From Flavobacteriales bacterium (GTDB lineage Bacteria; Bacteroidota; Bacteroidia; Flavobacteriales; BACL11): a stretch of DNA of 16,025 bases. The stretch covers positions 2,910-18,934 of the forward strand of contig PBQB01000028.1 in assembly GCA_002724895.1 (NCBI GenBank), given 5' to 3'. Positions within the stretch are counted from its first letter, which is position 1; every line of letters begins with the position of its first letter. The notes beneath the pieces are model-generated. The model was not told the origin of the DNA, did no database searches, and saw only the letters and a list, made by a program, of their open reading frames with translations. Shown here one piece after another: positions 1 through 15,794 of this stretch. The position numbers and the translations under genes were made by a program.

Positions 1-464
1 GTTTCATGTTTTAAAAGCCATAATCTCTCTAATCCATATGCAACAAAAATAATAATAGAGTTAGCAAATAAAAGTTCAGCATGTGTAATTTTTTTATTTG
101 AAAGTGCATTAACAACAGAAATCCCAATAACTAAAAATAAATAAGTCATTTCTTTAATAGGAATTGGGTCAGTTCTATATCTAATTATACCAAAAATTGC
201 AAATAAACCTAGTGCAAACCCTAACTGTAATTTGACATTATCTAAAAGGATACATAATAAAAAGACTGTTAAACTAATTAAAAAATATGTAAACAAATAA
301 TCCTTGTTTTTTGTTATAGGATAATATATATATCTAACTATTATAGTTATAACAATAAGGTTAAAAACTGATTTAAATATAAGTTTCCAAAAGTCTTTTG
401 CGTCAAACAAGGGTGCTCCTAAAAATTCTAAAGTACTATCAAGCAAAATCAATAATAATTCCAT
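1..464 (-). CDS. DUF4956 family membrane protein (partial, C-terminus beyond window edge)
   Basis: I translated this reading frame by hand because it runs off the left edge without a stop; 154 N-terminal residues are present. Hydrophobic segments lie at about residues 32-49, 57-75, 80-95, 107-120 and 131-146. The stretch GFALGLFAIFGIIRYRT at about 82-98, followed by DPIPIKEMTYLF, is what I recognise as the core signature of DUF4956 membrane proteins, which are usually about 200-230 residues long. The ATG overlaps the stop codon of the upstream VTC gene by one base (TAATG), so translation is probably coupled. From memory of the family, DUF4956 genes commonly sit beside VTC-domain polyphosphate polymerases and CotH-like kinases, exactly as here. 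The biochemical role is unknown. A channel, transporter or membrane anchor working with the VTC enzyme is an inference from position only. Confidence 0.9.
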   Translation of the reverse strand, partial: MELLLILLDSTLEFLGAPLFDAKDFWKLIFKSVFNLIVITIIVRYIYYPITKNKDYLFTYFLISLTVFLLCILLDNVKLQLGFALGLFAIFGIIRYRTDPIPIKEMTYLFLVIGISVVNALSNKKITHAELLFANSIIIFVAYGLERLWLLKHE

Positions 465-1216
465 TATGCATATTTTAATCTATTAATAAATAATTCCTTT
501 TTTTTAAATCTATTTTTTTTAATATCAGGATTTAACTGAAGTGTTGAGATACAGTATTTACTCAATCTAAATGGTAAAATACCCATTTCTTTAGCTTTGG
601 TAATAAAAATAGAAGATCTACTCATTCTTTCTTGTTTAACTTCTGCAATAGCTAAATAATTTAAGTTTCCTGTTTTTATTTGATTAGAAAAATTGAGATC
701 TATGTCAATTGTTAGTCTTTCTTTATCTTTCTTGCTAACCAAAGTAATCCTTCTAAAGGAAATCCATTGTTGAGCACTAACATCAATATTTTTACCAATA
801 ATTTTTTTAATAAAAGTAGATTGTTCTTTTGAAATTTTATTTGGAATTCCATCCAACACCTTAATTCTTTTTTTAATTGTCCTGCCTTTATTATTTTTAA
901 GTTTTATCTCTAAAAATGTTAAATCGCTTCCAACATACTGTCTAAATCTAATTTTATTTCTATTAACTCTCCTATTGTGATGATCGATATAAAACTTTCT
1001 ATCTTCAGTGTCATAATAAAGAGATTTATAATCTTGTATCAATTGGCCTTTAATGTCAAGTATATTATAAAATGGTTTTATATTTTTTAATAATTCATTT
1101 AATTTCAAACAAGAAAACGTAAATTTTGTATCAGTTCTATTCATTAACTTAACACCATCCATTTGAGATAATGAAATAGTATCAAATCCAGAAATTATTT
1201 GAGTTAAATTTTCCAT
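464..1216 (-). CDS. VTC-domain polyphosphate polymerase-like protein
   Basis: The 250-residue protein looks like a stand-alone VTC domain (triphosphate tunnel metalloenzyme fold). In yeast Vtc4 this domain makes polyphosphate from ATP in a tunnel lined by basic and acidic residues. Visible tunnel-strand motifs are RTDTKF (27-32), YYDT (67-70), KIRFRQY (88-94), EIKLK (103-107), SFRRITL (153-159), TIDIDL (169-174), AEVK (191-194) and a SKYC motif (219-222). Their order and spacing fit an intact domain of normal length, and the basic and acidic strand positions look preserved. There is no signal peptide or membrane segment, so it should act in the cytosol or at the inner membrane face. It follows the lipoprotein gene by 3 bases and overlaps the DUF4956 gene by 1 base. 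Polymerase activity is inferred from the family; another nucleotide- or triphosphate-processing activity is possible. Confidence 0.88.
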   Translation of the reverse strand: MENLTQIISGFDTISLSQMDGVKLMNRTDTKFTFSCLKLNELLKNIKPFYNILDIKGQLIQDYKSLYYDTEDRKFYIDHHNRRVNRNKIRFRQYVGSDLTFLEIKLKNNKGRTIKKRIKVLDGIPNKISKEQSTFIKKIIGKNIDVSAQQWISFRRITLVSKKDKERLTIDIDLNFSNQIKTGNLNYLAIAEVKQERMSRSSIFITKAKEMGILPFRLSKYCISTLQLNPDIKKNRFKKKELFINRLKYA

Positions 1217-1219
1217 TAA

Positions 1220-1627
1220 TTATTTTTGTATTATAAAATCAGGAACGCTAAATCTACTATTATCTTTGTTTATTTCTACATGCTTAAAAATAGGATAATC
1301 ATAAGTAATATCATTTACAACAATACTATCAACATGTGTAAATACTGTATACTTACCCTTTCTTAAAAATTCAAAATGATACCTACCGTCCCAATCTGTT
1401 TCAAAATTATCATCATAAATTTGTGACTCATCATCAGAGTATATTATATAAATATCTTTCCCAGATTTTGGATAATAGTGTGTATCATTCATTTGGGTTT
1501 GAGTATTATATGTAGTAGTAAAATATATTACTCTTCCCTCAATAACTGATGTTCCTCCCTCACCAGCTTGTTTTTCACAAGAAATGAATAGTAGTATAAC
1601 TAGAAAATAAGATATGTATCTTTTCAT
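1220..1627 (-). CDS. Small lipoprotein with a predicted beta-sandwich domain
   Basis: This 135-residue protein begins with a lipoprotein signal: a charged start, a hydrophobic run and the lipobox FISC, with Cys17 the probable lipidated residue. The mature part reads SVIEGRVIYF (27-36), then a gap, GKDIYIIYSDD (56-66), and TDWDGRYHFEFLRKGKYTVF (78-97). The last stretch resembles carboxypeptidase-regulatory-like or prealbumin-like domains, where a D-G-x-Y/F turn precedes a strand and a G-x-Y-T-V strand follows. A surface or periplasmic attachment role is likely. It lies 3 bases after the CotH gene and 3 bases before the VTC gene, so it is probably a structural partner in the same operon. No enzyme motif is visible and I do not recognise a named family, so function is unassigned. 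Confidence 0.8.
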   Translation of the reverse strand: MKRYISYFLVILLFISCEKQAGEGGTSVIEGRVIYFTTTYNTQTQMNDTHYYPKSGKDIYIIYSDDESQIYDDNFETDWDGRYHFEFLRKGKYTVFTHVDSIVVNDITYDYPIFKHVEINKDNSRFSVPDFIIQK

Positions 1628-1630
1628 AAG

Positions 1631-3835
1631 TTATTGCTTTAAAAATTTAACAGTTTTATTTCCAGATCTAACAAAATAAATACCTTTTTCAAATTTACCA
1701 ACATCTAAAGCTTTTAACATTTTAGATGAATAAAATACAATTTGACCTAAATTGTTAAAAATAGTAACTGACTCTTCTAAACCACTAAAGTACAATATAT
1801 CTGTAGTGGGGTTAGGATATATATTAAAACTACCTTTAGTTTTGATATTATTATTTGATAAAATAGAGGAGTTAGCCATATCATATGTAGGTTCTTGATA
1901 AACAAATGGTCCAGAACCATTTGGAACTCTAGAGTATGATAAATCAACTGGCATATTCACAAAATGTACTGCATCTAAAACTGTTCCACTTGGATCTATT
2001 AAATAAACCTCTTCTTGATCTGCAGAAAGTCTGTATGTTGTATGCAAACCACTTTGAGTAGTTCCAGCAGTATCACACCAAATAATTAAATAATCATTTG
2101 ATGCAATAGTAATGTTTGGAAACATCCATTTATTTAAAATATTTTCATTATCAGACAAATAAAAGCCCGTTAAGTTAATATCATTAGCGCCTCCATTATA
2201 TAATTCTACCCAATCATCATATTCTCCATCTTGGTCTGCAACCTTAGAAAAATTTGCAGCCATTACTTCATTAATAACCAATCCACTTATGACAGGAATT
2301 TGATGAAAATCATGTTCTGCTCTTTGTGGAGAAAAGATTCCAGCATCACTATTTTCAGCATAAATATAATACTGTATATCTCTAGCATCTACATTAATTG
2401 TCGCGCCATAAATTCCATCTCCCGCAATTCCATCACCATTATTTCCATCATCAAACATTTGTACTTTTTCAAACTTATCAGCAAACTTAAACCTATATCC
2501 AAGATAAGCATAATCCGCATTACTAATATTTGATGTGATACTAACTGAACTATGTGGTAAAACAGATATTGGATTTGAAGATAAATTATCTATTATTGGA
2601 GGGTTTGCAGAAAACTCAGGTAAAGATTGAAGGTGATTAATTCGTGAATCCATTAATTCAGTTATACCTATATTGCTACCAATAGAAGAATTTACATTTG
2701 CACTAAATGCAGAATATGGAAAAAATAAATTTGGATCTGTAGAAACATAGCTATCAATTAATTGTTGTAAATCAGAAATTATAGAAATATATTCACCATT
2801 TACAAAATAATCATTTATAATTGTTTTCATATGAGCAACATACATTCTTTTATACTGGTCAACAGAAAACATCTTCATATTCATGATATTTAGATTATTA
2901 GAAGCTCCATGAAAAATATCTAGTTGCTGTAAATCTTGATTATTAACAGGTGTTGGTAATCCATTAGTAAAAGTTCCAAAAGATTGATTCATATCCCACA
3001 TAATCGGAGAAAATCTTCCATTATTATCTTGAAATAAATAAAAATTATGTGGTATGGAATTAATTGGTCCATCTAGACAAACAAGTAGATTTTCAAATGC
3101 CATCATCCATAAAGTTCTATCAATATCTAAAACATTTTCAATATGAGTAAAATGATTATTAACTGTATCAAGAAAATGTGACAATTTAGTCCAATCATTA
3201 GACGATTGCATTTCATATGCTCTTTGGTAGCATAAAGTATCTAAATAATGATCCCAAACTCTTAATGGACCTGAGCAATTTGGTATGTTTATTCCAGTAT
3301 TTTCTGCTTTAAAAAATGGACCCTTTCTTTCATAAAAATTTTCATTTGTAAAATCATCATCTACAGATTGAACACAGACATATAAACCAACTAAAACTCC
3401 ATTTACGGAAACATTAGCGTAGGTAGCTTTTGGAGCAGGCATGAATTCTTGAGCAATTTTATAGCTTAACATTTCTCTAACAAATGTTGGGTCTTTAAAT
3501 CCATTAGATAACTTAAGCACATTATATCCATCTATTGATTGCCCATTATTAATGTAATCTAATCGAATATTCATTGGATTTTTTCCATTATTAATATTGT
3601 AGGAGCTATTCCCTTTGTATTTTATACCAACATTTTGGTCAACTTCACCATCAATGATAATTGAATCAGCTACTAATCTTTGCCCATTTCCGTTAGAATA
3701 ATATAAATCTAATGTATCATCCCAATGTACTTCACTAAAAAATATTTCTATATTTCTAACTCCTAAATCAAAAACATTTTGAGTAAAGATCAAATTTGGA
3801 AAAAAAAGGAGATAAATTATAATTGATTTTTTCAT
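1631..3835 (-). CDS. CotH kinase-family protein with lamin-tail domain and T9SS sorting domain (copy 2)
   Basis: The 734-residue exported protein has a signal peptide (about 1-18). A CotH domain covers about 28-400: IKYKGNSS (71-78), LKLSNGFKDPTFVREMLSY (107-125), PAPKATYANVSVNG (133-146), GLY (150-152), D255 with N264, and WDMNQSFG (280-287). A beta-rich linker with the acidic glycine loop DDGNNGDGIAGDGIYG (462-477) follows. Next come a lamin-tail domain (about 518-626, starting LVINEVMAANFS) and a T9SS type A sorting domain (about 668-734, NIYPNPTTDILYF). CotH of Bacillus is a secreted-protein kinase of atypical fold. Here the product should reach the cell surface through T9SS. D255 and D281 are probably the metal or catalytic aspartates. 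The Glu usually following GLY is Gln156 in this copy, so activity is uncertain. Its substrate is unknown. The 47-base gap upstream is the largest in the gene run. Confidence 0.88.
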   Translation of the reverse strand: MKKSIIIYLLFFPNLIFTQNVFDLGVRNIEIFFSEVHWDDTLDLYYSNGNGQRLVADSIIIDGEVDQNVGIKYKGNSSYNINNGKNPMNIRLDYINNGQSIDGYNVLKLSNGFKDPTFVREMLSYKIAQEFMPAPKATYANVSVNGVLVGLYVCVQSVDDDFTNENFYERKGPFFKAENTGINIPNCSGPLRVWDHYLDTLCYQRAYEMQSSNDWTKLSHFLDTVNNHFTHIENVLDIDRTLWMMAFENLLVCLDGPINSIPHNFYLFQDNNGRFSPIMWDMNQSFGTFTNGLPTPVNNQDLQQLDIFHGASNNLNIMNMKMFSVDQYKRMYVAHMKTIINDYFVNGEYISIISDLQQLIDSYVSTDPNLFFPYSAFSANVNSSIGSNIGITELMDSRINHLQSLPEFSANPPIIDNLSSNPISVLPHSSVSITSNISNADYAYLGYRFKFADKFEKVQMFDDGNNGDGIAGDGIYGATINVDARDIQYYIYAENSDAGIFSPQRAEHDFHQIPVISGLVINEVMAANFSKVADQDGEYDDWVELYNGGANDINLTGFYLSDNENILNKWMFPNITIASNDYLIIWCDTAGTTQSGLHTTYRLSADQEEVYLIDPSGTVLDAVHFVNMPVDLSYSRVPNGSGPFVYQEPTYDMANSSILSNNNIKTKGSFNIYPNPTTDILYFSGLEESVTIFNNLGQIVFYSSKMLKALDVGKFEKGIYFVRSGNKTVKFLKQ

Positions 3836-3882
3836 AAATTAACTTTGTGGTAAATTTAAGATAACTTTTTATTAATAATTAA

Positions 3883-5151
3883 TTATTCTATGATAATCTT
3901 TCTATTCTCTATGTTTTTCTTGCCTTCTATTGACAGATAATATATTCCTGAGGAAAAGCTAGATAAGTCTAATTTGTAATTTCTAGAAGAATTAACTAGT
4001 TTTTTAAAAGAAGTAATAGCACCTAAGTTATTGTAAAGTGTTAATTTTTCAATTTTTTCAGATGAAGATATATTCAATAAAGATTTAATTGGTATAGGAT
4101 ATAATTTCACTTTATTTACATGATTTATGTCATTAATTTTCGTTGCCGTTAATGATATTTTAGATATACCAGTACTTGTAGCTACCCAAATATAAGGAGA
4201 TGAATCGTAGCTTAAATCTAAACCTCTAACATTTAGTCCTGCAAGGCCATCAGACACATCAAAATCTATCCACTGCTGATTCATATTATAACCATAACCT
4301 GCTACACCACCAACACCTAAATAACCAACATAAATTGAAGCCCAAACTCCGTATATAGACTCATCTAAATCAGAAAAGCTAGAAAGATTTACTACTGGAT
4401 TTAATGTGTCTGGAGGTGGCAAAACATACATTCTAGTATAATTAGTTACAACCAAGTTTGTTGAATCTAAAATAGACAAACCTCCACCAGTTCCAATCCA
4501 TTTATTATCATACTCATCAATAATTAAATCAGTAACATTTTGAGATAAAATTCCATTTGAAGTGTCGTATGTGATGAAGTTTGATGGACCATCAAAATGT
4601 GTGATTCCACCAAGAGGAGAAGAAATCCAAACATCGCCATTAGAATCAAATGCAGTGGCATTAACTCCACTCCAATGCAAATTAGGAGCTCCAACAGAAA
4701 TCCAACTAGAACTAGAAAAATATGAAAGTCCACTTATAGTTCCTATAAAAACATCTCCATCTGGGTGCTCATCTATACTTCTTACTTGATTATTAATTAA
4801 ACCATTGTTATTATCATAAGTTATCCAATTTGTTCCATCAAATTTACCTGCACCATAATCTGTTCCAATCCATACATCTCCGTTTTTCATTGTAGCTATC
4901 ACTTTAATATTATCAGATGGCATATTAGGATAATTTGCCTGGGTATATGTTGTCCAACTTAAATTTGCTTCATCAAACTTTTGCAAACCTATTGATGTAC
5001 CTATCCAAATTATAGAAGGATTTATCTTATCAACCGCAATACACTCAACAAAATCTGAGATTAAACCATTGGCTTCAGTGTAATTAGTAATTGTTTGAGA
5101 AACAATATTGAGACTATAAAAAAAGAAAATAAACACATGAATATATTTCAT
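3883..5151 (-). CDS. Two-component-regulator-type beta-propeller protein, T9SS exported
   Basis: The 422-residue protein has a signal peptide (about 1-18) and a chain of Reg_prop-type propeller repeats. Blade signatures are IWIGTSIGLQKF (48-59), VWIGTDYGAGKF (93-104), VFIGTISGLSYF (134-145), VWISSPLGGITHF (174-186), KWIGTGGGLSIL (217-228) and IWVATSTGISKI (321-332). Several are preceded by the NGL turn typical of this repeat. In hybrid two-component regulators these repeats form the periplasmic sensor. Here there is no membrane helix, kinase or DNA-binding domain, so it is a free propeller. The C-terminal 75 residues look like a T9SS type A sorting domain, but the usual YPNP motif reads YPIP (351-354). 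The gene sits between two CotH genes, 3 bases after the upstream one. A ligand-binding or protein-docking role at the cell surface is an inference. Confidence 0.85.
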   Translation of the reverse strand: MKYIHVFIFFFYSLNIVSQTITNYTEANGLISDFVECIAVDKINPSIIWIGTSIGLQKFDEANLSWTTYTQANYPNMPSDNIKVIATMKNGDVWIGTDYGAGKFDGTNWITYDNNNGLINNQVRSIDEHPDGDVFIGTISGLSYFSSSSWISVGAPNLHWSGVNATAFDSNGDVWISSPLGGITHFDGPSNFITYDTSNGILSQNVTDLIIDEYDNKWIGTGGGLSILDSTNLVVTNYTRMYVLPPPDTLNPVVNLSSFSDLDESIYGVWASIYVGYLGVGGVAGYGYNMNQQWIDFDVSDGLAGLNVRGLDLSYDSSPYIWVATSTGISKISLTATKINDINHVNKVKLYPIPIKSLLNISSSEKIEKLTLYNNLGAITSFKKLVNSSRNYKLDLSSFSSGIYYLSIEGKKNIENRKIIIE

Positions 5152-5154
5152 AAA

Positions 5155-7410
5155 CTATATTTTTAATATCTTAACTACTTGCTTATTTTTATTATTCAAA
5201 TGTATAAAATAAACTCCTTTACTCCAAGAAGATGTTTCATGGTAATTGAAGTTATTTAAATTTACCTCTCTTCCAAATATATCTCTTATACTATATTTTT
5301 CTTTAGTATTCACAAATAATTTATCTGTAAATGGATTCGGATATGCAATAAAATTAGAAAATTTTGTGTTTTCATGAACGTTAGATGCAAAATCATTACT
5401 AAAACTAAATGTTGGAGTTAAAACTGTAAAACCTCCAAACCCATTTGGACTTCTGGAATATGACATGTCATTTGGTTGAGAAATAAATGTTATAGAATCT
5501 ATAACTGTACTATCCATATTAGCTAATATTAAAGTTTCACCATTATTAGAAAGACGAAAATTTGCATGCTTACCTCCTTGATGCTCATCTTCATCAGCCC
5601 AAATTATATAATATGAATCTGGATTTATAACATGATTAGGTAATTTCCACTTAGATAAATTTAACAAGGTATCTGACAAATATAATCCATTAGTTGAAAT
5701 TGGATAAGTAGATTTATTATATAACTCTATCCAATCATCATACTTTCCACTTTTATCAGCCACAACACTTAGATTATTTGACATTAACTCATTAATTACT
5801 AAATCTCCTTTTTGAATTGGAATTGTCAAATTATAAAACTCAAAAGATGCTCTTTTAGGAGAAAATATTCCAGCAGAATCATTATCAGCATAAACATAAT
5901 AATCAATTGAATTACTACAATTTGAAATTTTACATCCATAAACACCATCTCCTGCAATACCATCATTATGATTCCCATCATCATACATTGTTAAAGATGT
6001 AAACCTTTCATTTTCACCAAATCTAAATTGAACTTGTGCAAAGTTTGCATTGCTAATTTCTGCTTTAATCCATAAATCTCCACCAACAACAAAATTCTGA
6101 TAATTTGTTGTAATATTAGAAATATATGGTTCTCCACTGTATCCTGAATAAGAAGAAAGATAGCTAGAACGTGTATCCATTAATTGACTAATTCCAGGAC
6201 AAATTGATGTTGATAAAATAACTTGATTATTTAAATTACTTGTAAAGTCAGAATAAGAATAAAATTTGTTTGTGTCATTTTGCACACTTTGATCAATTAA
6301 ATTTTGTAAAAATTGAGCTCTATTTATATAATCTTGATTTATAAAGTTTTCTTCAATTATTGTTCTTATATGGGCTATATACATTTTTCTATGTCTATCA
6401 TTTTCAAACAACTTCTTCAAAAGAGGTCTTGGCGATGTTGAAATGTAATTATGATGAATTAATGGATCCATATTTTGGGCTTGATTAATATCAAAACCAT
6501 TAAAATATAGCTGTGATGCATCTGTTAACCTAAAACTTCCAAACGACATGTTTAAATCCCAAATAATTGGATTCCATTGTTTTGCATTATCATAATACAA
6601 ATAATAGTTCTGCGCATAACCAATATATGAATCAAAATTTACCATAGCATAATTTAATGCATGCATCCATAGAGTTCTATTTACATTTAAAATATTATCT
6701 ATACTATCAATATAGTTATTTAAAGTATCTATTAAATTATATAAAGTTGACCATCCAAAATTGGACTTTTGATCATAATAGGGGAAATAATCTAAACTAT
6801 CTGTACCATGACTTTGACTTAAATTAGAATTTTCACCACCAACTTGAATATCTATATTTTTAGGATTACATTTGAAAAATGGATTATATTTTGATTTATA
6901 ATTTTTAACTAAAAAATCTTTGTTTATGGCTTCTACATTTGTATACAATCCCCATAATGTATCATTAATAAAAACATTAGCATAATTTGCTTTTGGAGAA
7001 GGCATATATTTTCTACATACTTCATAACTCAATACTTCTCGAACAAATGATGGGTCTTGAAATACATTTGCAAGTTTTAACTTATCAAATCCCTGATGAT
7101 TTTGTCCATCAATAACATAATCTAATTTAATATTAAAAGGATTTTTTACTCTATCTACACTAACAGAACTAAATCCTTTATATCTAACACCAACACTATC
7201 ATAAAAATTACCATCGATGGTAACTGATGCCAGTATCCTATCATTATCCCCTTTAATATAGAGACTATCTAAAAGATAATCCCAATTAGAATCATAAAAT
7301 GAAATTCTAATCTCTCTTAAAGAATCAGTATCATAAAAATCATTTTGAGAAAAAATAGAATTAGTAAAAATTAAAAGAAATAAAATAATGTTTAATTTCT
7401 TAAAAAACAT
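5155..7410 (-). CDS. CotH kinase-family protein with lamin-tail domain and T9SS sorting domain (copy 1)
   Basis: The 751-residue exported protein has the same domain order as the other CotH protein in this run. It has a signal peptide (about 1-22), then a CotH domain of about 32-420: VGVRYKGFSS (73-82), LKLANVFQDPSFVREVLSYE (111-130), PSPKANYANVFIND (137-150), GLYTNVE (154-160), D260 with N268, and WDLNMSFG (284-291). A linker with DDGNHNDGIAGDGVYG (477-492), a lamin-tail domain (about 537-645) and a T9SS type A sorting domain (about 683-751, IAYPNPFTDKLFV) follow. This copy keeps Glu160 after GLY, so it is the better candidate for an active kinase. Its ATG overlaps the stop of the arylsulfotransferase-like gene by one base (TAATG). 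Kinase activity and substrate are inferred from the CotH family, not shown. Confidence 0.88.
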   Translation of the reverse strand: MFFKKLNIILFLLIFTNSIFSQNDFYDTDSLREIRISFYDSNWDYLLDSLYIKGDNDRILASVTIDGNFYDSVGVRYKGFSSVSVDRVKNPFNIKLDYVIDGQNHQGFDKLKLANVFQDPSFVREVLSYEVCRKYMPSPKANYANVFINDTLWGLYTNVEAINKDFLVKNYKSKYNPFFKCNPKNIDIQVGGENSNLSQSHGTDSLDYFPYYDQKSNFGWSTLYNLIDTLNNYIDSIDNILNVNRTLWMHALNYAMVNFDSYIGYAQNYYLYYDNAKQWNPIIWDLNMSFGSFRLTDASQLYFNGFDINQAQNMDPLIHHNYISTSPRPLLKKLFENDRHRKMYIAHIRTIIEENFINQDYINRAQFLQNLIDQSVQNDTNKFYSYSDFTSNLNNQVILSTSICPGISQLMDTRSSYLSSYSGYSGEPYISNITTNYQNFVVGGDLWIKAEISNANFAQVQFRFGENERFTSLTMYDDGNHNDGIAGDGVYGCKISNCSNSIDYYVYADNDSAGIFSPKRASFEFYNLTIPIQKGDLVINELMSNNLSVVADKSGKYDDWIELYNKSTYPISTNGLYLSDTLLNLSKWKLPNHVINPDSYYIIWADEDEHQGGKHANFRLSNNGETLILANMDSTVIDSITFISQPNDMSYSRSPNGFGGFTVLTPTFSFSNDFASNVHENTKFSNFIAYPNPFTDKLFVNTKEKYSIRDIFGREVNLNNFNYHETSSWSKGVYFIHLNNKNKQVVKILKI

Positions 7411-8999
7411 TACTTTAAATATGAAAAATGTTTTGTGTATAAATTAGATGAAGTTAGTATATTAATTGTGTAAATCCCTCTTTTAAGTCCATCTAAAGTA
7501 AAACTAAAATTATTATTTAAAAAATGTTCTTGAGAAAAAACTATTTTTCCAAACATATCATAAATAAATAACCCTTCAATTTGTTGATTTAATAATGCTA
7601 AATCTATATTAATATCATAACTTGATGGATTTGGATAAATAATAAATTTTTTTTCTTCATCAATAAAATTATCATTTGATGGAAAAGAGCATGTAGTAGT
7701 ATCTGACAACCAATTTTTTAGTGCTATTATACCCGGGTAATCACATTCATATCTAAATCCTTTTTGTGAATCAGATGGGTATGGCCCCCATACTATTTGT
7801 TCAGTAATTCCATCAACTTCATACATTACTCCTGCTCCACTTCCAGAAGCATTCACAAAAATATTTCCATTAGACATTCTATTTGAAGCTGACTGTCCTC
7901 CAGATGAGTATTGACATTCATATCTTGTTGTATAAGAACTGGGACCAAATGGTTGCCCTGCATTTCTAGTATATGTTTTGGTTAATGGATCCCATGGTGT
8001 TTCTATTCCATCAATTGTTGAATTAGCTTGAGAATTTGGACCTCCACCAGTACATCCATTACCACAATTATTAAATATTTGTAAAAATCCTCCGTTTGGT
8101 CTTCCATCATTCTCTATCCATCTAGAATCATGAACTGCACTAGTGATGATTTGTGCTCCAGGCATTCCATAATTAGAAGGGTTCCCCCATCTATACAATA
8201 TATCACCTCCCATTCCTGAATTTCCACCAGTACTTCCAGCTGCTTCCTGAGTTGTAGTACTATGATCAATGATATAAATCTCAGAAGAAAATCGAGATGA
8301 AAAAACAATTTGATCTAGCTCTTCATTATAATCAACCCCATTAACATGAAACCAATCTCCCCCTCCTCCACCAGGGCCACCTCCAGAATTTTGAATCATA
8401 TTAATATCTATCAAATGAGGATGTTCAGAAATATTTGTAACATAATTTGGTTTGTTTGGATCAACATCCTGACATAAATGATCCCAAATATGCCATTCCC
8501 AAACAATATTCGCACTACCATTTCCATCAGGTTCTAGTTCTATAAAATGAGTTGGCCATTTACCAGCATTTCCTATATTTCCTGTGTATCCCGCTGCAGA
8601 AACTTCTGCGGCTGATTTAACCTCCCAAGCTGTAAGCAAAACATTATCTCCAATCAATGTCATATCATGATGACTTAAATGATTCGCATCTGAGTAAATA
8701 AAATCCCAAACTATCGACCCATCTGGGGCTAACTCTTGAACTCTACCTCCATCAGCAGCACCATTTAGTATATTACCAGAGTATTTAGTACCTCTTACCA
8801 AATTACCATTTTTTTTAAGTAAAACAGTATAATTACAATCAGTTGTTGTATTCCATTCATGAACAATATTTAAATTTTTATCAATTAGTTTTGTTGTGGA
8901 AGATCCTGAAGAATTAAATAATGCAAACCCATCAAATGATTGAGCCGATAAATAAAAATGAGATATATAAAAAAGAAAGAAAAAAAATTGTTTATTCAT
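7410..8999 (-). CDS. Arylsulfotransferase (ASST)-like beta-propeller protein, T9SS exported
   Basis: The 529-residue protein has a signal peptide (1-20) and a propeller resembling arylsulfotransferases. Family-type motifs are HEWN (47-50), ELAPDGSIVWDF (89-100), HLSHHDMTLI (107-116), ELEPDGNG (154-161), DWFHVNGVDYN (215-225), ILYRWGNP (267-274), AVHDSRWIENDGRPNG (288-303) and YEVDGITEQIVW (393-404). ASST enzymes move sulfate between phenolic compounds using a catalytic histidine; several conserved-looking histidines are present (H110, H111, H218, H290), but I cannot assign the catalytic one. A glycine-rich loop (205-214) precedes the DWFH motif. The C-terminus is a T9SS type A sorting domain (IIYPNPSSYDINI, 453-465). 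It starts 32 bases after mazG and its stop overlaps the next CotH gene. It could instead be a non-catalytic propeller involved in binding. Confidence 0.83.
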   Translation of the reverse strand: MNKQFFFFLFYISHFYLSAQSFDGFALFNSSGSSTTKLIDKNLNIVHEWNTTTDCNYTVLLKKNGNLVRGTKYSGNILNGAADGGRVQELAPDGSIVWDFIYSDANHLSHHDMTLIGDNVLLTAWEVKSAAEVSAAGYTGNIGNAGKWPTHFIELEPDGNGSANIVWEWHIWDHLCQDVDPNKPNYVTNISEHPHLIDINMIQNSGGGPGGGGGDWFHVNGVDYNEELDQIVFSSRFSSEIYIIDHSTTTQEAAGSTGGNSGMGGDILYRWGNPSNYGMPGAQIITSAVHDSRWIENDGRPNGGFLQIFNNCGNGCTGGGPNSQANSTIDGIETPWDPLTKTYTRNAGQPFGPSSYTTRYECQYSSGGQSASNRMSNGNIFVNASGSGAGVMYEVDGITEQIVWGPYPSDSQKGFRYECDYPGIIALKNWLSDTTTCSFPSNDNFIDEEKKFIIYPNPSSYDINIDLALLNQQIEGLFIYDMFGKIVFSQEHFLNNNFSFTLDGLKRGIYTINILTSSNLYTKHFSYLK

Positions 9000-9893: not shown

Positions 9894-11921
9894 ATGAGAA
9901 AAATATTATCAATTTGCTTGTCTATAATAACATTAAGCCTATTTTCACAAAATTTTGTTAGTACTACTGCTGAAAATAAAAATGTAATTCTTGAAGAGTT
10001 TACTGGAATTAGTTGTGGATTTTGTCCTGATGGTCATGCTATTGCTCAAACATTAAATAATGCAAATCCAAACGATGTTTTTTTAATTAATATACATACT
10101 GGAAGCTATGCAAATCCTCAAGGTCCAGGAACAGACTTTAATACTTCGTTTGGAGCTGCTATAAGTAATTTAAGTGGAACTTGTGGTTATCCAGCTGGAA
10201 CAGTAAACAGAATAGATTTTAGTTCTCAGGGACTGAATCAAACAAGTTCAAGTGGATGTGTAGCAACTACCGCTATGAGTAGAGGAAATTGGACAACAGC
10301 TACTAATCAAACCTTATCTGAAAGTTCATATATAAATGTTGCTGCTCAAGCAACAATAGATGTAACAACAAGAGTACTTACAGTAATTGTTGAAACATAT
10401 TATACTGGAACTGTGCCTCAAGGTGTGACAAATAATATAAATGTTGCTTTATTACAAAATAATATCCCAGGCCCTCAAAGTGGCGCAGCCAATTATAATC
10501 CTAGTGGAATTATTCCAGGCCCTTGGAATCCAACATATAATCATCAACATATGTTAAGACATCTTTTGACAGGTCAATGGGGAGAAGCTATTCCAGTATC
10601 TTCAGGATTTTGGACAGACACTTACACCTACACAATTCCAAGCAATCTTAATGGTGTCAGCTTTGATTTATTTAATTTAGAAGTGCTAGTATTTGCAGCC
10701 GAAGGTCAAGAAAATATTATTACTGGAAATAAAGCTAGTTTATCATACAATGTTCCACCAGGAACAAATTTAATAGATATGTCAGCTAGTACGAGCATGG
10801 TTATGCCTTCTTCATACTGTGATAACAATATTACTCCTAAAATCACAGTTTCTAATAATAGCAATATACCAATTGATACATTTGAAGTGAGCTATGTTCT
10901 TAATTCTAATAACCCTGTAACACAAAGTGTATACAATTCAATTCCTGCTGGAGGGAATAGTACTATTTCTTTTCCCGCTATTACGGTTCCATCGGGAACA
11001 AATAATATAAGTTACAGTGTTAATACAATGAATGGATCTTCATATGTTGATAGTATATCAAATAATAATTTAGTTAGTAGTGGAGAATTTAATTTATTAT
11101 CCAATACACCTTTTTCTACAACATTTACAGAAAGTTTTGACAATTATACTCCTGGACAAGCAATTTTAAATAATGGCTTGATTGAAAATCCAAACAATAC
11201 AAATACATATGTTGTAGATAATAGTGTAAATTCAAATGTTAATTGGGCATTAGGAGGTTATGGAAATAGTCCAAAATCATATCGATTTAGATTTTATCAA
11301 GGCTGGAACACAAATGATCAAGTCACCATGTTATGGGAAAAAGTTGATTTTAGTAATAGCTCAAATAATGAAATGTCTTTTTCATATGCTCATGCAGTGC
11401 AAAATAGTTGGGATAACTCTAAATTACAAGTATTAGTTTCTTTAGATTGTGGCAATTCATGGAATGAAGCAAGCGTACTAGTTGGGGGTAATCTAAGTAC
11501 AGTAAGTGGCGCCGTTAGTGGAGGGCATTTTTATCCATCATCTACAGATTGGCAAACTCATACAGTTGACTTAAGTGACTATGATGGAGAATCAGATGTT
11601 AATATTGCCTTAAGAGCTACTTATAATGGTGGTAATAATTTATATATTGATGATGTAAATGTAAGTGCTCAACAAATATCTAACACCTCAAATTTGGAGA
11701 ACAAATTTTCCATTCATCCTAACCCAACCAGAAACCAAATCATCATTGAAGATGGTAAATTTATCTCTGTCAAAGTATATAATATTTATGGAAAATTAGT
11801 TTTAAATCAAAAATCTAATAATAGAAAAATAAATATTAATCACTTTAAAAGTGGTGTATATCATTTAAATATTAATACCGGTAAAGAAATTATTATTAAA
11901 AAAATAATAAAGATTGAATAA
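9894..11921 (+). CDS. T9SS-exported protein with Omp28-like thioredoxin-fold domain
   Basis: The 675-residue protein starts with a signal peptide (1-19, ending SLFSQ). Residues 28-110 match the Omp28-like, thioredoxin-related region: NVILEEFTGISCGFCPDGH (30-48), where CGFC (41-44) is a CxxC pair, then VFLINIHTGSY (62-72) and CGYPAGTVNR (97-106) with the cis-proline-type YPAG turn. A beta-rich middle follows. Residues about 412-592 look like a choice-of-anchor/MAM-type jelly roll (ESFDNYTPGQ; WNTNDQVTMLWEKVDFS; NNLYIDDVNV at 581-590). The end is a T9SS type A sorting domain (FSIHPNPTRNQIIIE, 605-619). The product should be on the cell surface or secreted. The CxxC suggests thiol-disulfide or metal chemistry, but redox activity is unproven; Omp28 homologues are also described as structural outer-membrane proteins. 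It is monocistronic, bounded by its own terminator. Confidence 0.85.
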   Translation: MRKILSICLSIITLSLFSQNFVSTTAENKNVILEEFTGISCGFCPDGHAIAQTLNNANPNDVFLINIHTGSYANPQGPGTDFNTSFGAAISNLSGTCGYPAGTVNRIDFSSQGLNQTSSSGCVATTAMSRGNWTTATNQTLSESSYINVAAQATIDVTTRVLTVIVETYYTGTVPQGVTNNINVALLQNNIPGPQSGAANYNPSGIIPGPWNPTYNHQHMLRHLLTGQWGEAIPVSSGFWTDTYTYTIPSNLNGVSFDLFNLEVLVFAAEGQENIITGNKASLSYNVPPGTNLIDMSASTSMVMPSSYCDNNITPKITVSNNSNIPIDTFEVSYVLNSNNPVTQSVYNSIPAGGNSTISFPAITVPSGTNNISYSVNTMNGSSYVDSISNNNLVSSGEFNLLSNTPFSTTFTESFDNYTPGQAILNNGLIENPNNTNTYVVDNSVNSNVNWALGGYGNSPKSYRFRFYQGWNTNDQVTMLWEKVDFSNSSNNEMSFSYAHAVQNSWDNSKLQVLVSLDCGNSWNEASVLVGGNLSTVSGAVSGGHFYPSSTDWQTHTVDLSDYDGESDVNIALRATYNGGNNLYIDDVNVSAQQISNTSNLENKFSIHPNPTRNQIIIEDGKFISVKVYNIYGKLVLNQKSNNRKININHFKSGVYHLNINTGKEIIIKKIIKIE

Positions 11922-11988: not shown

Positions 11989-12183
11989 ATGAATTTTTTA
12001 TCTCTTTTTATTATAAGCATTATTTGCATGTCATTAGTATTTATTGGAATTGGAATAAAAATTATATTTAAAAAAAATGGCAAATTTGCTGGTACTTGCG
12101 CTAGTGCAAATCCTTTGATTAATAATGAAGGTGAAACCTGTGGTTATTGTGGTAAAAAACCATCTGACTGCGATCAAAATTAA
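11989..12183 (+). CDS. nqrM: NqrM-like maturation factor of the Na+-translocating NADH:quinone reductase
   Basis: The 64-residue protein has one N-terminal membrane helix (about 4-27), a basic stretch KKNGK, then a short cysteine-rich tail: GTCAS with Cys37, CGYC with Cys51 and Cys54, and Cys61 near the end. This layout (single helix, K-rich edge, G-S/T-C motif, then further clustered cysteines) is that of NqrM (DUF539). In Vibrio, NqrM is required to deliver or insert the iron centre held between NqrD and NqrE, and its first tail cysteine is essential. Position supports the call: the gene is convergent with apbE at the end of the nqr operon, with stop codons overlapping by 4 bases. No close promoter is seen, so expression may come from readthrough of the terminator before it. 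Identity rests on motif layout and context; an unrelated metal-binding peptide remains possible. Confidence 0.75.
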   Translation: MNFLSLFIISIICMSLVFIGIGIKIIFKKNGKFAGTCASANPLINNEGETCGYCGKKPSDCDQN

Positions 12184-13178
12184 TTTCTAATCCTATTCTT
12201 TAAATTTGGACTCACATAAGTTTTCCAATTATTATTTTTATCTGTGTAAACGAGATAAACTTCAATCTCTGGTTTATTAATAATAAACTCTTTTATCTTC
12301 TTAACCCCCATCACCATAAAAGCAGTAGCATAAGCATCAGCTAAAGCACAACTACTATGAATAACAGAAACACTTAACAAACGATTTGAACAAGGAAAAC
12401 CAGTAAAAGGACTAATGGTATGACTATATTTAGTTTGATTAATAGTAAAAAATTTTCTATAACTACCTGAAGTTGCTATTGCCTTATCATCTAAATTTAA
12501 AATAAACTGAAATCTATCAGCATAATTAATTGTATCTGTTGGCTTATCTACTCCAATTGACCAAATTTCTCCGTCTGCATTTCTTCCTTTAGCTAATAAT
12601 TCACCTCCTACTTCTATTAAAAAATCTGTACATCCTTTTTTTTGTAAAAATCCCCCAATAATATCAACAGTATATCCTTGTGCTATAGCATTAAAATCTA
12701 ATTGCATTTTATCTATTAATTTTAAACTATCTCCTTTAAAATTAACTTTACTAAATCCTATATTATCCAATAGTTTATCAATTTTCAAGGAATCAATCAC
12801 TAAAGAATCATCAAATGAAAAATTATAAAATCCCCATTCTTTAACAAGTGGATAAATAGTACAATCAAAACTTCCATTAGTCTCATTATATACATCTTTT
12901 GACATATAAAAAACTTTTTTGAATAGACTATCCATTTCAATCATTTTACCATTATTTAATGAAGAAATTAATGAATAATCTTTATAAATTGAAAGGGAAC
13001 TGTCTATCTTTAAAAAAATACTATCAATTTCAAAACTATAATCCCGGGCATTTTTTGATAAATATTGTATATGAAAAAAAGTACCTTGAGCTTTACCTGA
13101 ATTTATAATCAATACTAAATTGTCTGAATTATTGCAAGAAGTAAATATTATTAAAAAAAATAAAATAATGTATCTCAT
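12180..13178 (-). CDS. apbE: FAD:protein FMN transferase (ApbE), lipoprotein
   Basis: ApbE uses FAD and Mg2+ to attach FMN through a phosphoester bond to threonine in NqrB and NqrC; the enzyme acts on the outer side of the inner membrane. The 332-residue protein has a lipoprotein signal with lipobox FTSC (Cys15). Family motifs are GKAQGTFFHIQY (28-39), DFNAIAQGYTVD (161-172), EVGGEL (189-194), ATSGSYRKFF (235-244), HTISPFTG (253-260) and LADAYATAF (279-287), the last holding the Asp/Thr expected to bind Mg2+. Length is normal and no key motif is missing. It follows nqrF by 25 bases as the last gene of the nqr operon, so the modifying enzyme is co-expressed with its targets. No terminator lies between its stop and the convergent nqrM gene. 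Confidence 0.95.
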   Translation of the reverse strand: MRYIILFFLIIFTSCNNSDNLVLIINSGKAQGTFFHIQYLSKNARDYSFEIDSIFLKIDSSLSIYKDYSLISSLNNGKMIEMDSLFKKVFYMSKDVYNETNGSFDCTIYPLVKEWGFYNFSFDDSLVIDSLKIDKLLDNIGFSKVNFKGDSLKLIDKMQLDFNAIAQGYTVDIIGGFLQKKGCTDFLIEVGGELLAKGRNADGEIWSIGVDKPTDTINYADRFQFILNLDDKAIATSGSYRKFFTINQTKYSHTISPFTGFPCSNRLLSVSVIHSSCALADAYATAFMVMGVKKIKEFIINKPEIEVYLVYTDKNNNWKTYVSPNLKNRIRN

Positions 13179-13203
13179 AATTATATATCAATTACGATAT
13201 ATA

Positions 13204-14517
13204 TTATCCTCCGAAATCATCAAAACGAACATTCTCATCAGGAATACCCCAATCATCAGCCATTTTTAAAACTGCCTGATTCATTAATGGAGGACCACAA
13301 AAATATAATTCTAGATCTTCTGGACTTTCATGATTAGATAAAAACTTATCTATCACAATATTATGTACAAATCCTACAAAACCATCGCCATTTTTATCGT
13401 TTAAATCTTTCTTCTCTATCCAATTATCTTCTGGTTTAGCATCAGATAAAACAAGATGAAATTTAAAATTTGGGAAATCCTTTTCTAAATCCCTAAAATA
13501 ATGAATATAAAAAAGCTCTGCTCTTGATCTTCCACCATAAAAGAAGGTTACCTTTCTTCCTGTTTTAATTGTTTTAAAAAGCTCATATAAATGCGAACGC
13601 ATTGGAGCCATTCCTGCTCCTCCACCTATATACAACATTTCAGCTTCGCTATCATTAATAAAAAATTCTCCATAAGGACCAGAAATTGTTACTTTATCAC
13701 CTTCTTTTAATCCAAAAATATAAGATGATGCAATTCCAGGGTTGATATCTGCCCATTTATTTTTTTCTCTATCCCAAGGAGGAGCAGCAACTCTTACGTT
13801 TAACATAACTTTTCTTCCTTCTGCAGGAAATGATGCCATAGAATAAGCTCTGACAATCTCATCATCATTTTTCATTACAAGATGTCTCATTGCAAAAGAA
13901 CCTTTTGACCAATCCTCTTCAAATTTGTCTGGTTCACCTGGATGATCTTGAGGATGAGCTTTAATATCCATATCTGAGTATTTAACTTCACCAGCAGGAA
14001 CTTTAATCTGTATATAGCCTCCAGCTTTATAATCCATGTCTTCTGGAATTTCGACTATAAACTCTTTTATATATGTAGCTACATTGTAATTAGAAACTAC
14101 TGTAGCTTCCCATTCCTTTACTCCAAATACCTCTTCTGGAATTTCTATCTCCATATCTTCCTTAACCTTTACTTGACATCCTAATCTAAAATTATCAGCT
14201 ATTTGCTTTCTTGAAAAATGTGGCTTTTCTGTAGGCAGTATACTTCCTCCTCCTTTATGAACTTGACAAGTACACTGAATACAAGTTCCACCACCACCAC
14301 AAGCAGATGGTAAAAAAATACCCGCATCACTTAAAGTTGTCAAAACAGTATTTCCACCTTCAACTTCTAGTTCTTTTTCTCCATTAATAATTAGTTTAAG
14401 CTTTCCAGCAGGAGTCAATTTACTTTTAGTAAATAAAAGTATACTTACTAAAGTAATAATCACTGTTAAAAAAACTACTACACTACTAATTATTGTTGTT
14501 GTACTGATTAAATCCAT
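13204..14517 (-). CDS. nqrF: Na+-translocating NADH:quinone reductase subunit F (NADH-oxidising subunit)
   Basis: NqrF takes electrons from NADH into the complex through FAD and a 2Fe-2S cluster. The 437-residue protein has one N-terminal helix (about 8-30). A ferredoxin-type domain (about 38-125) follows with cluster ligands Cys73, Cys79, Cys82 and Cys114 (ACGGGGTCIQC; RLGCQV). The FAD-binding domain has RAYSMASFP (RxYS motif), and the NADH-binding domain has YIGGGAGMAPMRSHL, FFYGGRSRAELFY and YFCGPPLM. The C-terminus NVRFDDFGG matches the family end, where an aromatic residue shields the flavin. It is about 30 residues longer than the Vibrio protein, mainly from a charged insertion before the RxYS motif (roughly residues 180-215). 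Spacing to nqrE is 8 bases, consistent with one operon. Confidence 0.97.
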   Translation of the reverse strand: MDLISTTTIISSVVVFLTVIITLVSILLFTKSKLTPAGKLKLIINGEKELEVEGGNTVLTTLSDAGIFLPSACGGGGTCIQCTCQVHKGGGSILPTEKPHFSRKQIADNFRLGCQVKVKEDMEIEIPEEVFGVKEWEATVVSNYNVATYIKEFIVEIPEDMDYKAGGYIQIKVPAGEVKYSDMDIKAHPQDHPGEPDKFEEDWSKGSFAMRHLVMKNDDEIVRAYSMASFPAEGRKVMLNVRVAAPPWDREKNKWADINPGIASSYIFGLKEGDKVTISGPYGEFFINDSEAEMLYIGGGAGMAPMRSHLYELFKTIKTGRKVTFFYGGRSRAELFYIHYFRDLEKDFPNFKFHLVLSDAKPEDNWIEKKDLNDKNGDGFVGFVHNIVIDKFLSNHESPEDLELYFCGPPLMNQAVLKMADDWGIPDENVRFDDFGG

Positions 14518-14525
14518 TTAAAAAA

Positions 14526-15146
14526 TTATAACTTAATTCCCATAAAACTCATAAACGCAATACCCATCAATCCTGTAATAATATAGGTGATCCCCAACCC
14601 TCTTAATGGAGCAGGAACATTAGAGTATCTTATTTTTTCTCTAATAGCTGCAAGACCAACAATTGCTAAAAAAAATCCTGTTCCTGATCCTAGACCAAAA
14701 ACTGTTGCTTCAGTTATATTGTTATATGCTCTTTCTTGCATAAATAATGAGGATCCCAATATTGCACAATTTACAGCAATCAAAGGAAGAAATAGTCCTA
14801 ATGAACCATATAATGCAGGAGAAAACTTTTCAATAAGCATTTCTACCAGTTGAACCATTGATGCAATGACAGCAATAAACATTATAAAAGATAAAAAACT
14901 TAAATCAACTTCTTTAAAGTCATCTCCTAACCATGAAGCTAATGCTCCTTCTTGTAAAACATAATTCTCTAGTAAGTAATTGATTGGAACAGTAATTCCT
15001 AAAACAAAAACAACAGCTCCACCCATTCCAACAGATGTTTCTACAGTTTTTGAAATAGCAAGATAAGAACACATACCTAAAAAGTATGCAAAAACCATAT
15101 TTTCAATAAATACTGCTCTTATAAATATATTTACTAATTCTTCCAT
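14526..15146 (-). CDS. nqrE: Na+-translocating NADH:quinone reductase subunit E
   Basis: NqrE is an integral membrane subunit that pairs with NqrD as inverted-topology homologues and lies on the electron and sodium path. The 206-residue protein is almost entirely hydrophobic, with about six membrane helices. Cys26 (FLGMCSYLA) and Cys127 (AVNCAILGSS) are the two intramembrane cysteines that, with their NqrD counterparts, hold the iron centre installed with help from NqrM. The N-terminal MEELVNIFIRAVFIENMVFA and the C-terminal GLGITYIITGLMGIAFMSF are typical of the family. It starts 3 bases after nqrD ends and precedes nqrF by 8 bases. Confidence 0.97.
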   Translation of the reverse strand: MEELVNIFIRAVFIENMVFAYFLGMCSYLAISKTVETSVGMGGAVVFVLGITVPINYLLENYVLQEGALASWLGDDFKEVDLSFLSFIMFIAVIASMVQLVEMLIEKFSPALYGSLGLFLPLIAVNCAILGSSLFMQERAYNNITEATVFGLGSGTGFFLAIVGLAAIREKIRYSNVPAPLRGLGITYIITGLMGIAFMSFMGIKL

Positions 15147-15149
15147 TGT

Positions 15150-15785
15150 TTAATTAGTTTCTATTAATTTTTTATTTCGCATTCTTTGTAACCAAATTAA
15201 AATCCCTACAGTAATTAAAGCCATAGGAGGTAAAATCATCATTCCATTATTTTCATAAAAACCACCATTTTGAATATACCATTCTAAAGGAATAACCTGC
15301 TTTCCAAATAAAGTTCCAGAACCTAATAATTCTCTAAAAAATGCAACTATAATTAAAATCATACCATATCCAAAAGAATTACCTAAACCATCAAGAAATG
15401 CCTTACCAGGAGTATTTCCTAAAGCAAATGCCTCTAATCTACCCATAATGATACAATTTGTAATAATCAAACCAACAAATACAGAAAGTTCTTTACTAAC
15501 ATCGTAAACGAACGCTTTTAGAACTTGATCAACTAAGATAACTAGTGTAGCAATGACTACTAGCTGAACAATAATCCTAATTCTAGATGGAATTAAATTT
15601 CTTAATAATGAAACTACCACATTAGCAACAGAAAGAACAACTAAGACAGACAGAGACATAACTACTGCAGGCTCGAGTTGAACGGTAATTGCAAGTGCAG
15701 AGCAAATACCTAATACTTGTACTGTAATAGGATTATTATCATCTAAAGGATCAACTAATAATTTTTGATTTTTTTTGGATATCAT
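15150..15785 (-). CDS. nqrD: Na+-translocating NADH:quinone reductase subunit D
   Basis: NqrD is the membrane partner of NqrE in the Na+-pumping complex. The 211-residue protein has about six hydrophobic helices. Cys28 (VLGICSALAIT) and Cys111 (IITNCIIMGRLEAFA) are the paired membrane cysteines expected to bind the shared iron centre. The cytosolic N-terminus ends with the DPLDDNNPITVQVLG segment common to the family. GRLEAFAL, GNTPGKAFLDGLGNSFGYG and FFRELLGSG are further family stretches. Length matches other NqrD proteins. The gene lies 9 bases after nqrC and 3 bases before nqrE. Confidence 0.97.
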   Translation of the reverse strand: MISKKNQKLLVDPLDDNNPITVQVLGICSALAITVQLEPAVVMSLSVLVVLSVANVVVSLLRNLIPSRIRIIVQLVVIATLVILVDQVLKAFVYDVSKELSVFVGLIITNCIIMGRLEAFALGNTPGKAFLDGLGNSFGYGMILIIVAFFRELLGSGTLFGKQVIPLEWYIQNGGFYENNGMMILPPMALITVGILIWLQRMRNKKLIETN

Positions 15786-15794
15786 TTTTGTAGT

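Follow-up and report, generated by a model that had tools for sequence, protein, structure and literature searches.

The window analysed here, a stretch of 16,025 nucleotides from a Flavobacteriales bacterium (positions 2910-18934 of contig PBQB01000028.1), holds seven genes of a putative eight-gene operon, which brings together two CotH-domain proteins, a VTC-domain polyphosphate-polymerase homologue, a DUF4956 membrane protein and a DUF2490 barrel. The trio of CotH, VTC and DUF4956 is known from Pel loci; here it occurs in a new and conserved form that has an outer-membrane partner but no PelG. As the best single reading, to which we give a probability of about 0.45, we propose that the operon makes and exports inorganic polyphosphate, which would serve the CotH proteins at the cell surface.

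The gene set and its conservation

The seven genes all lie on the minus strand and are transcribed from position 8999 down to 1. In this direction they encode an ASST-like beta-propeller of 529 amino acids (aa) with a type IX secretion system (T9SS) tail (7410..8999; PF05935, 38.1 bits against a cut-off of 24.2); CotH-A, 751 aa, with a CotH kinase domain, a Lamin Tail Domain and a T9SS tail (5155..7410; PF08757, 134.7 bits, cut-off 23.8; PF00932); a Reg_prop beta-propeller of 422 aa with a T9SS tail (3883..5151; PF07494, 34.3 bits, cut-off 20.4); CotH-B, 734 aa, with the same three parts as CotH-A (1631..3835; PF08757, 128.8 bits); a small lipoprotein of 135 aa (1220..1627); the VTC-domain protein, 250 aa (464..1216; PF09359, 77 bits, cut-off 23); and DUF4956, with 154 of its 214 aa in the window (1..464; PF16316, 123 bits for this part, cut-off 30.6). 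No junction is longer than 47 bases: from the ASST-like gene to DUF4956 there are a 1-base overlap, gaps of 3, 47, 3 and 3 bases, and again a 1-base overlap. This tight same-strand run, with four T9SS sorting domains and one lipoprotein, had been described in the first-pass annotation of the window and was borne out. Six of the seven products have Pfam matches above cut-off, the exception being the lipoprotein; PF18962 is found in four of them at 38 to 42 bits, and the N-terminus of the 135-aa protein (...LLFISC) reads directly as a lipoprotein signal.

All seven genes are thus present, but the set continues beyond the window, which truncates it. DUF4956 runs past the end of the window (complete gene L006:2729-3373, minus strand, 214 aa with one ambiguous residue; PF16316, 184.9 bits) and its end is overlapped by an eighth gene wholly outside, DUF2490 (L006:2098-2790, minus strand; PF10677, 69.2 bits against a cut-off of 29.8), a 230-aa open reading frame (ORF) with the likely ATG start inside it. 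The source genome (1.58 Mb in 108 contigs, 79% complete) carries a single gene each for DUF4956, VTC and DUF2490, all at this locus, and four CotH genes, two of them here.

To assess conservation we searched for DUF4956 in 148 genomes of the same order and found it in 53. The 54 matches above the cut-off, our own included, were fetched (one below it was omitted) and their genes mapped with profiles seeded from the window; 45 loci that scored more than 200 bits with our DUF4956 profile were classed as strong. VTC lies directly upstream of DUF4956 in 42 of the 45, and two of the three exceptions have fewer than 140 bases of contig there. DUF2490 lies directly downstream in 44, and a relative of the lipoprotein directly precedes VTC in 19 of 21 strong same-family loci and in all seven loci of family f9. 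CotH is on the same stretch in 24 of the 45; seven of the remainder are loci of our own family with less than 2 kb of upstream sequence. Where more than 13 kb was available upstream, 9 of 12 same-family loci, own included, retain the full eight-gene order (L058 with an inserted gene); of the other three, CotH is absent from that region in two (genus g6), and only CotH-B is present in one (g9). We conclude that the eight-gene arrangement is more than chance.

At the level of whole genomes, VTC was found in 44 of the 148, and all 44 also have DUF4956 and CotH; among the 104 genomes without VTC, DUF4956 is present in 9 and CotH in 34. The Fisher values for this co-occurrence are tiny, but the independence that they assume is broken by relatedness. 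Nine weaker DUF4956 loci are of another kind: VTC is present in one of them and DUF2490 in one. As they mostly lack both partners, a second DUF4956 type exists outside the system.

Several single loci may be recorded here. At L075 (genome G070), counted among the 42, several stops interrupt VTC, leaving ORFs of 92 and 125 aa; DUF4956 and DUF2490 seem intact, and this may be a decaying copy or poor sequence. At L085, L087 and L088 a 185-aa type of DUF4956 adjoins a MORN-repeat protein (by Pfam for L085, by similarity for the others), with no VTC or DUF2490 alongside and no CotH match in the genomes, and probably has another function. L086 (genome G112) is a second, divergent DUF4956 immediately followed by a CotH-domain gene (30.5 bits), with no VTC on its short contig.

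Comparison with Pel loci

CotH, a polyphosphate polymerase, DUF4956 and DUF4832 have been described beside the Pel operons of Gram-positive bacteria (streptococci, clostridia and bifidobacteria) (PMC7112168; this and all other papers are cited from part of their text). In 2025 the three genes of the trio were deleted in Streptococcus intermedius, and the authors report that the arrangement was not found outside Pel (PMC12345266). The first-pass annotation had called the association recurring but functionally undescribed; it does recur, across phyla, but these two papers had already described it.

PelG was the one pel gene searched for, and it gave no match in the source genome or in any of the 44 VTC-positive genomes. 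Three partial matches were seen among the 148 genomes, one of them barely over the cut-off (29.5 against 29 bits), all in genomes without VTC. By this measure the CotH/VTC/DUF4956 trio occurs outside Pel loci, in genomes without PelG, which the 2025 analyses had not found. The Pel accessory genes belong to the same three families, encoding a secreted CotH, a polyphosphate-polymerase domain and a membrane protein with an ACT-like end, and are contiguous; in the operon the lipoprotein gene sits between CotH-B and VTC. The operon also adds DUF2490, the lipoprotein, a second CotH and the T9SS propellers, shows no DUF4832 in a scan of nine proteins of the window, and is not contiguous with pelDEADAFG. 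Another related arrangement is NELoc-2 of Clostridium perfringens, where VTC genes likewise stand beside membrane proteins (annotated as 'tubulin/FtsZ') and CotH; unlike in the operon, these partners are not annotated as DUF4956 and a glycosyltransferase is near (PMC2879425).

The VTC-domain protein

No signal peptide or membrane segment is visible by eye in the VTC protein. Among 57 VTC sequences 21 columns are invariant, including R27, K31, R90, R92, E103, K105, K115, R117, R156, E192 and K194. The 'RLR' of Vtc4, to which R90 and R92 are aligned, is taken as Arg264 and Arg266 of the yeast protein, two residues reported to be essential for making polyphosphate (PMC8749416). A profile of the 57 sequences searched against the PDB up to E 10 matched only VTC-family chains (six sequences); the single sequence matched nothing. 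By eye, the remaining invariant residues would correspond to tunnel residues of Vtc4. The predicted model (pLDDT, a per-residue confidence score, 95.4) gave VTC-complex/Vtc4 structures as its first 11 Foldseek matches (E 6e-12 to 3e-10, led by 8i6v and 3g3r), at an identity of about 15%, with triphosphatases ranking after the VTC chains. A homologue search from VTC returned close relatives only and was not used. As neither an SPX domain nor a membrane anchor is present on the 250-aa protein (the domain scan matched the VTC domain alone), we file it as a VTC-domain protein and not as a VTC complex. Because the tunnel residues are invariant and the VTC chains are nearest in both fold and sequence, the protein quite probably has polymerase activity. 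In Bacteroides cellulosilyticus (L153) VTC and DUF4956 are naturally fused in one 542-aa ORF.

The DUF4956 membrane protein

Of the six proteins other than CotH that were compared, DUF4956 shows the highest conservation (74-81% in six same-family loci). Its predicted model (pLDDT 88.0) has five long helices followed by a C-terminal beta-alpha-beta-beta domain; the VIA-align rows mostly cover this small domain and barely probe the membrane part. The streptococcal DUF4956 has been proposed to belong to the MgtC family (PMC12345266). Aligned with a 12-sequence YhiD/MgtC alignment in hhalign, our DUF4956 gave a probability of 0.1%, a value from a shallow profile that does not exclude MgtC kinship.

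The eukaryotic VTC complex (Vtc4/Vtc3/Vtc1) resembles the operon in its TTM polymerase domain, basic tunnel and membrane partner, and its proposed mechanism, synthesis coupled to translocation, can be likened to what we suggest here. In yeast, the membrane part of the complex is thought to pass the polyphosphate chain across. The operon differs in that its membrane partner is DUF4956, which has no PDB match at E 1e-3. That DUF4956 likewise translocates a polyphosphate chain is a tentative proposal, falling a little short of an even chance.

The putative DUF2490 barrel

DUF2490 is classed (TCDB 1.B.81) as a family of putative porins with no established function (PMC4827864). For comparison we took 76 linked DUF2490s, those called on a stretch that also has DUF4956 (not all strictly adjacent, and three contigs twice; the distant copy of L108, on the other strand, was excluded), and 40 unlinked ones, hand-picked among the matches listed and non-random, half of them high-scoring and half copies from the same or small genomes. 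Residues were compared in 37 of the 40 (L262 and L269, cut by contig ends, were dropped, and L264 gave no match) and numbered on the 230-aa ORF. Position 96 is arginine in 64 of the 76 linked proteins as against 2 of the 37 unlinked; position 135 is glutamine in 67 of the linked and glutamate in 33 of the unlinked. Arginines 64, 112, 131, 133, 148 and 186 are common to most proteins of both sets. In five of six genomes with both kinds (G109, G067, G062, G085 and G145) the unlinked copies have E135 and no R96, and the linked copies R96 and Q135 (T135 in G067). Both copies of the sixth, G073, have R and Q; its second copy (L256), which bears the operon signature and is some 0.6 kb away from a CotH gene, was counted as unlinked and may belong to the system. 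Operon DUF2490s thus form a residue-distinct barrel subtype: they share PF10677 with the TCDB 1.B.81 porins, but are mostly R96/Q135 where the others mostly are not. The alternation at 131/133/135 suggests that these residues lie on one barrel face, probably that of the lumen.

That the polymer exits through DUF2490 we would call an even bet. The same residues, most operon members being without one acidic residue and with an extra arginine relative to other DUF2490s, would also fit traffic in the opposite direction, in which the barrel or porin and DUF4956 import phosphate or polyphosphate, VTC stores it and the surface proteins aid scavenging. PHO4 and phytase-like neighbours at some loci, and the Porin_O_P family found in place of DUF2490 at others, named for phosphate selectivity, are in accordance with such capture and storage. 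The HlyD/OEP-like neighbours at one locus are of export type, however (with matches barely over the cut-off), CotH proteins are ill-suited to scavenging, and in yeast the VTC complex carries polyphosphate away from the side where the polymerase sits, so that we hold import to be improbable.

We found no paper linking DUF2490 to VTC, CotH or polyphosphate in a literature that covered few subscription papers and no bioRxiv preprints. A DUF4956/DUF2490 pair of Bacteroides thetaiotaomicron, BT3498-99, appears as one line of an iron table (PMC10434189).

CotH and the other surface proteins

CotH is described as a kinase of atypical fold that uses ATP to phosphorylate CotB (PMC7821199). CotH-B matches the solved spore coat protein H (5jd9, E 7e-8); CotH-A, searched against the PDB as a single sequence, matched nothing. 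Two aspartates are kept in 68 and 71 of 77 CotH domains, along with, mostly, a Gly-x-Tyr; they are Asp260 and Asp285 in CotH-A and Asp255 and Asp281 in CotH-B. These may be the catalytic/metal residues (D228 and a second Asp in B. subtilis). The domain and the two aspartates are thus largely common to the Bacillus spore-coat kinase and the operon proteins; what sets the latter apart is the T9SS tail and Lamin Tail Domain, with which they probably act at the cell surface. The two CotH genes are separate orthologues. CotH-A is 61-64% identical to its orthologue in five of six same-family loci compared (L067 has CotH-B only), the values for CotH-B being 57-70%, as against about 40% across kinds and 42% between CotH-A and CotH-B themselves. 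Another CotH gene of the source genome (L008 2774-6154) has, by eye, a Lamin Tail-like start and a CHU_C-like end.

The remaining surface proteins are less constant. In the ASST-like protein the PF05935 match covers only profile positions 94-206 of 374 (113 positions), and the PDB search matched only its tail; His110, 111, 174, 218, 246 and 290 are invariant in 10 sequences. No single Reg_prop repeat passes the cut-off alone, and the protein scores 43.3 with the NCBIfam PorZ model, far below its cut-off of 260. Relatives of the two proteins are present in just 14 and 13, respectively, of 165 mapped stretches, a few contigs being counted twice, and we rejected both as core parts. The first-pass annotation had tied VTC and DUF4956 to T9SS genes. 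Within our own family they are indeed often linked and the opposite outcome, rare linkage, was not seen, but the ASST-like gene, the Reg_prop gene and the T9SS tails are lineage-specific and lie outside the core.

The fold of the lipoprotein is uncertain, possibly Ig-like; its SdrD_B match is below threshold (16.9 against 29.7 bits).

Distribution in other lineages

A cross-phylum genome scan, in which the first alignment sequence was from Deinococcus, returned at least 577 relatives, of which we examined the best 80, a non-random sample with some contigs repeating earlier ones. Among these, 67 loci are titled Bacteroidota, and VTC adjoins DUF4956 in 61 of the 63 with a called DUF4956. Eight are gammaproteobacterial, with VTC adjacent in seven (one at a contig edge), CotH in six and Porin_O_P in seven; five other or unnamed loci have VTC in four, CotH in two and DUF2490 in one. 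A class-wide gammaproteobacterial search found DUF4956, mostly divergent, in 11 of 274 genomes; nine of its twelve matches were mapped, with VTC strictly adjacent in three, CotH near in five and Porin_O_P in one. Pfam confirmed Porin_O_P at nine gammaproteobacterial loci (L092, L099, L103, L115, L116, L119, L144, L159 and L201). L207 has the order CotH, Lamin Tail Domain protein, DUF4956, HlyD-like, OEP-like, VTC, where the HlyD and OEP matches barely exceed the cut-off, and L208 has DUF4956, two genes of comparable size and a PHO4 phosphate transporter. The outer-membrane slot in Gammaproteobacteria is thus filled by a phosphate-selective-porin family or HlyD/OEP-like genes instead of DUF2490.

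DUF4956 was found in 23 of 301 Chloroflexota genomes. In 18 stretches from 16 of them, 17 with a called DUF4956, VTC is adjacent in 14 of 17 and CotH near in 9 of 17 (8 genomes); no DUF2490 or Porin_O_P was found in the 18 by our profiles. In Deinococcus taeanensis CotH, VTC and DUF4956 are consecutive, and in Aminobacter the order is DUF4956, VTC and a phytase-like gene. CotH was sought in nine carrier genomes outside the order and found in eight.

These loci bear on the view that the genes are neighbours through clade inheritance, with no functional link. The gene order is inherited within one family, and few lineages have the ASST-like and Reg_prop genes, as that view would have it. But CotH lies upstream of VTC in f1, f9, the gammaproteobacterial loci of Porin_O_P type and Deinococcus, and downstream in f7, most CotH-bearing Chloroflexota stretches, L204 and L205. 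Because its position differs among lineages, the association arose or was retained on several occasions, and inheritance alone is very improbable.

Other neighbours recur near VTC and DUF4956. Phytase-like proteins are seen at L094 and L205, and Cthe_2159 carbohydrate-binding proteins in Chloroflexota and Bacteroides (L136, L213, L219, L222; L153, L166; five of them identified by Pfam, and L166 by its similarity to L153). In many loci of Crocinitomicaceae type (L127, L137, L141 and others) VTC-DUF4956 is followed by lpxK and PNP_UDP_1, with no adjoining barrel or CotH. One apparent archaeal carrier, L129, on a contig titled Euryarchaeota, was rejected by eye: the sizes and order of its flanking genes match Bacteroidota loci, and the contig is probably mis-binned or mislabelled.

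A proposed route for polyphosphate

We propose that the VTC-domain protein would polymerise phosphate from ATP on the cytoplasmic side, docked at the inner membrane by the C-terminal domain of DUF4956, which would pass the chain across. The chain would then cross the outer membrane by way of DUF2490, with the lipoprotein playing an accessory part. The T9SS-exported CotH proteins with their Lamin Tail domains might bind or use the polymer as surface matrix material or as a phosphate source. In single-membrane bacteria the outer-membrane part would be missing. The suggestion, made in the first-pass annotation, that VTC makes polyphosphate which DUF4956 moves fits the tunnel residues, the fold, the VTC-DUF4956 fusion and the outer-membrane partner. 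Directly seen are the gene order, the co-occurrence, the tunnel residues, the predicted VTC fold and the barrel subtype; the activities themselves are inferred.

Bacteria are usually thought to make polyphosphate by PPK enzymes. If the proposal is true, polyphosphate made by a VTC-type route and exported would have another role, at the cell surface, and would offer a plausible phosphate source for secreted CotH-type kinases. The proposal would also place DUF4956 and the DUF2490 subtype in one testable pathway. PPK1, the usual polyphosphate synthase, was matched in 2 of the 44 VTC-positive genomes, compared with 64 of the 104 without VTC; in the control genomes of Bacteroides ihuae and Methanosarcina acetivorans both are present. 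This anticorrelation is suggestive only.

A number of observations weigh against the export of polyphosphate to surface CotH proteins. Of the 42 genomes with VTC and without PPK1, 41 fall in four families that have no PPK1 matches, which leaves few independent events. The DUF4956 model has no Foldseek match at E 1e-3, and a 'channel' is without support from homology. Among the Bacteroidota-titled loci of the cross-phylum scan, DUF2490 is near in 30 of 63 and CotH in 12 of 63, and many VTC-DUF4956 pairs stand without a barrel or CotH beside them. Within 8 kb of the trio of D. taeanensis no pel or barrel gene is annotated, and Deinococcus is not a simple single-membrane bacterium. The net charge of DUF2490, +6.8 per 100 aa in the 76 linked proteins as against +2.7 in 39 others, was dropped as proof of anion passage: it is higher in the linked copy in only four of the six genomes holding both kinds, and all nine gammaproteobacterial Porin_O_P proteins have the opposite sign, being net negative. 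As the charge evidence is mixed, we retained only the site-specific R96/Q135 difference.

The link to CotH is the least secure part. No CotH match was found in the B. cellulosilyticus genome (G155), despite its VTC-DUF4956 fusion and DUF2490, or in the control B. ihuae, which has VTC, DUF4956 and DUF2490; the control B. subtilis has CotH without VTC or DUF4956. From the two Bacteroides carriers we conclude that VTC-DUF4956-DUF2490 can exist without CotH, and for this reason hold a dependence of surface CotH on exported polymer to be rather unlikely. ATP is not expected outside the cell, and exported polyphosphate could be imagined as the phosphate donor of surface CotH kinases, a trans-envelope power supply for extracellular kinase chemistry without ATP, with one core (VTC, DUF4956 and CotH) across phyla and an exchangeable outer-membrane exit; we regard this extension as improbable.

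The deletions in S. intermedius point the same way. The CotH mutant had less Pel and, in artificial sputum medium, aggregated less, the DUF4956 mutant had more Pel and less aggregation, and in buffer the drop in aggregation was significant for the DUF4956 mutant only; no significant effect is reported, in the part of the paper cited, for deletion of the VTC gene SIR_1593 (PMC12345266). The last result is the strongest against CotH depending on VTC, and CotH need not depend on it there. Opposite Pel changes in two mutants, with no significant one reported in the third, agree with a module for matrix regulation, in which VTC is a phosphate/nucleotide sensor or triphosphatase, DUF4956 is regulatory through its ACT-like domain, no polymer is exported and the role of CotH is to modify or organise a matrix of exopolysaccharide or protein. 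The TTM superfamily also holds triphosphatases, next after the VTC chains in the fold ranking, and the Cthe_2159 proteins near VTC-DUF4956 would suit a matrix function too. Against regulation, among solved proteins VTC chains are the closest in both sequence and fold, though these include Vtc2, whose domain is inactive (PMC8749416); such a module would also leave unexplained why the outer-membrane partner is a dedicated one with a residue signature of its own, and why PelG matches are lacking in the VTC-positive genomes of the order. We judge it rather unlikely, though less so than import.

Neighbouring genes

The gene set is flanked upstream by mazG, on the same strand, which ends 32 bases before the ASST-like gene, and downstream, beyond DUF2490, by cdd and recG (recG by eye, cdd also by Pfam). 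At 9894-11921 on the plus strand, pointing away from the gene set, lies a gene for an Omp28-domain protein with a T9SS tail; an Omp28-type gene stands beside or inside the gene set in some relatives (L040, L042, L058 and L068). The far part of the window (12180-16025, minus strand) encodes NqrF (543 bits) followed by an ApbE-like flavin transferase (169.8 bits, NCBIfam cut-off 498). Upstream of NqrF are two membrane proteins that by eye resemble Nqr subunits, and this appears to be an ordinary operon.

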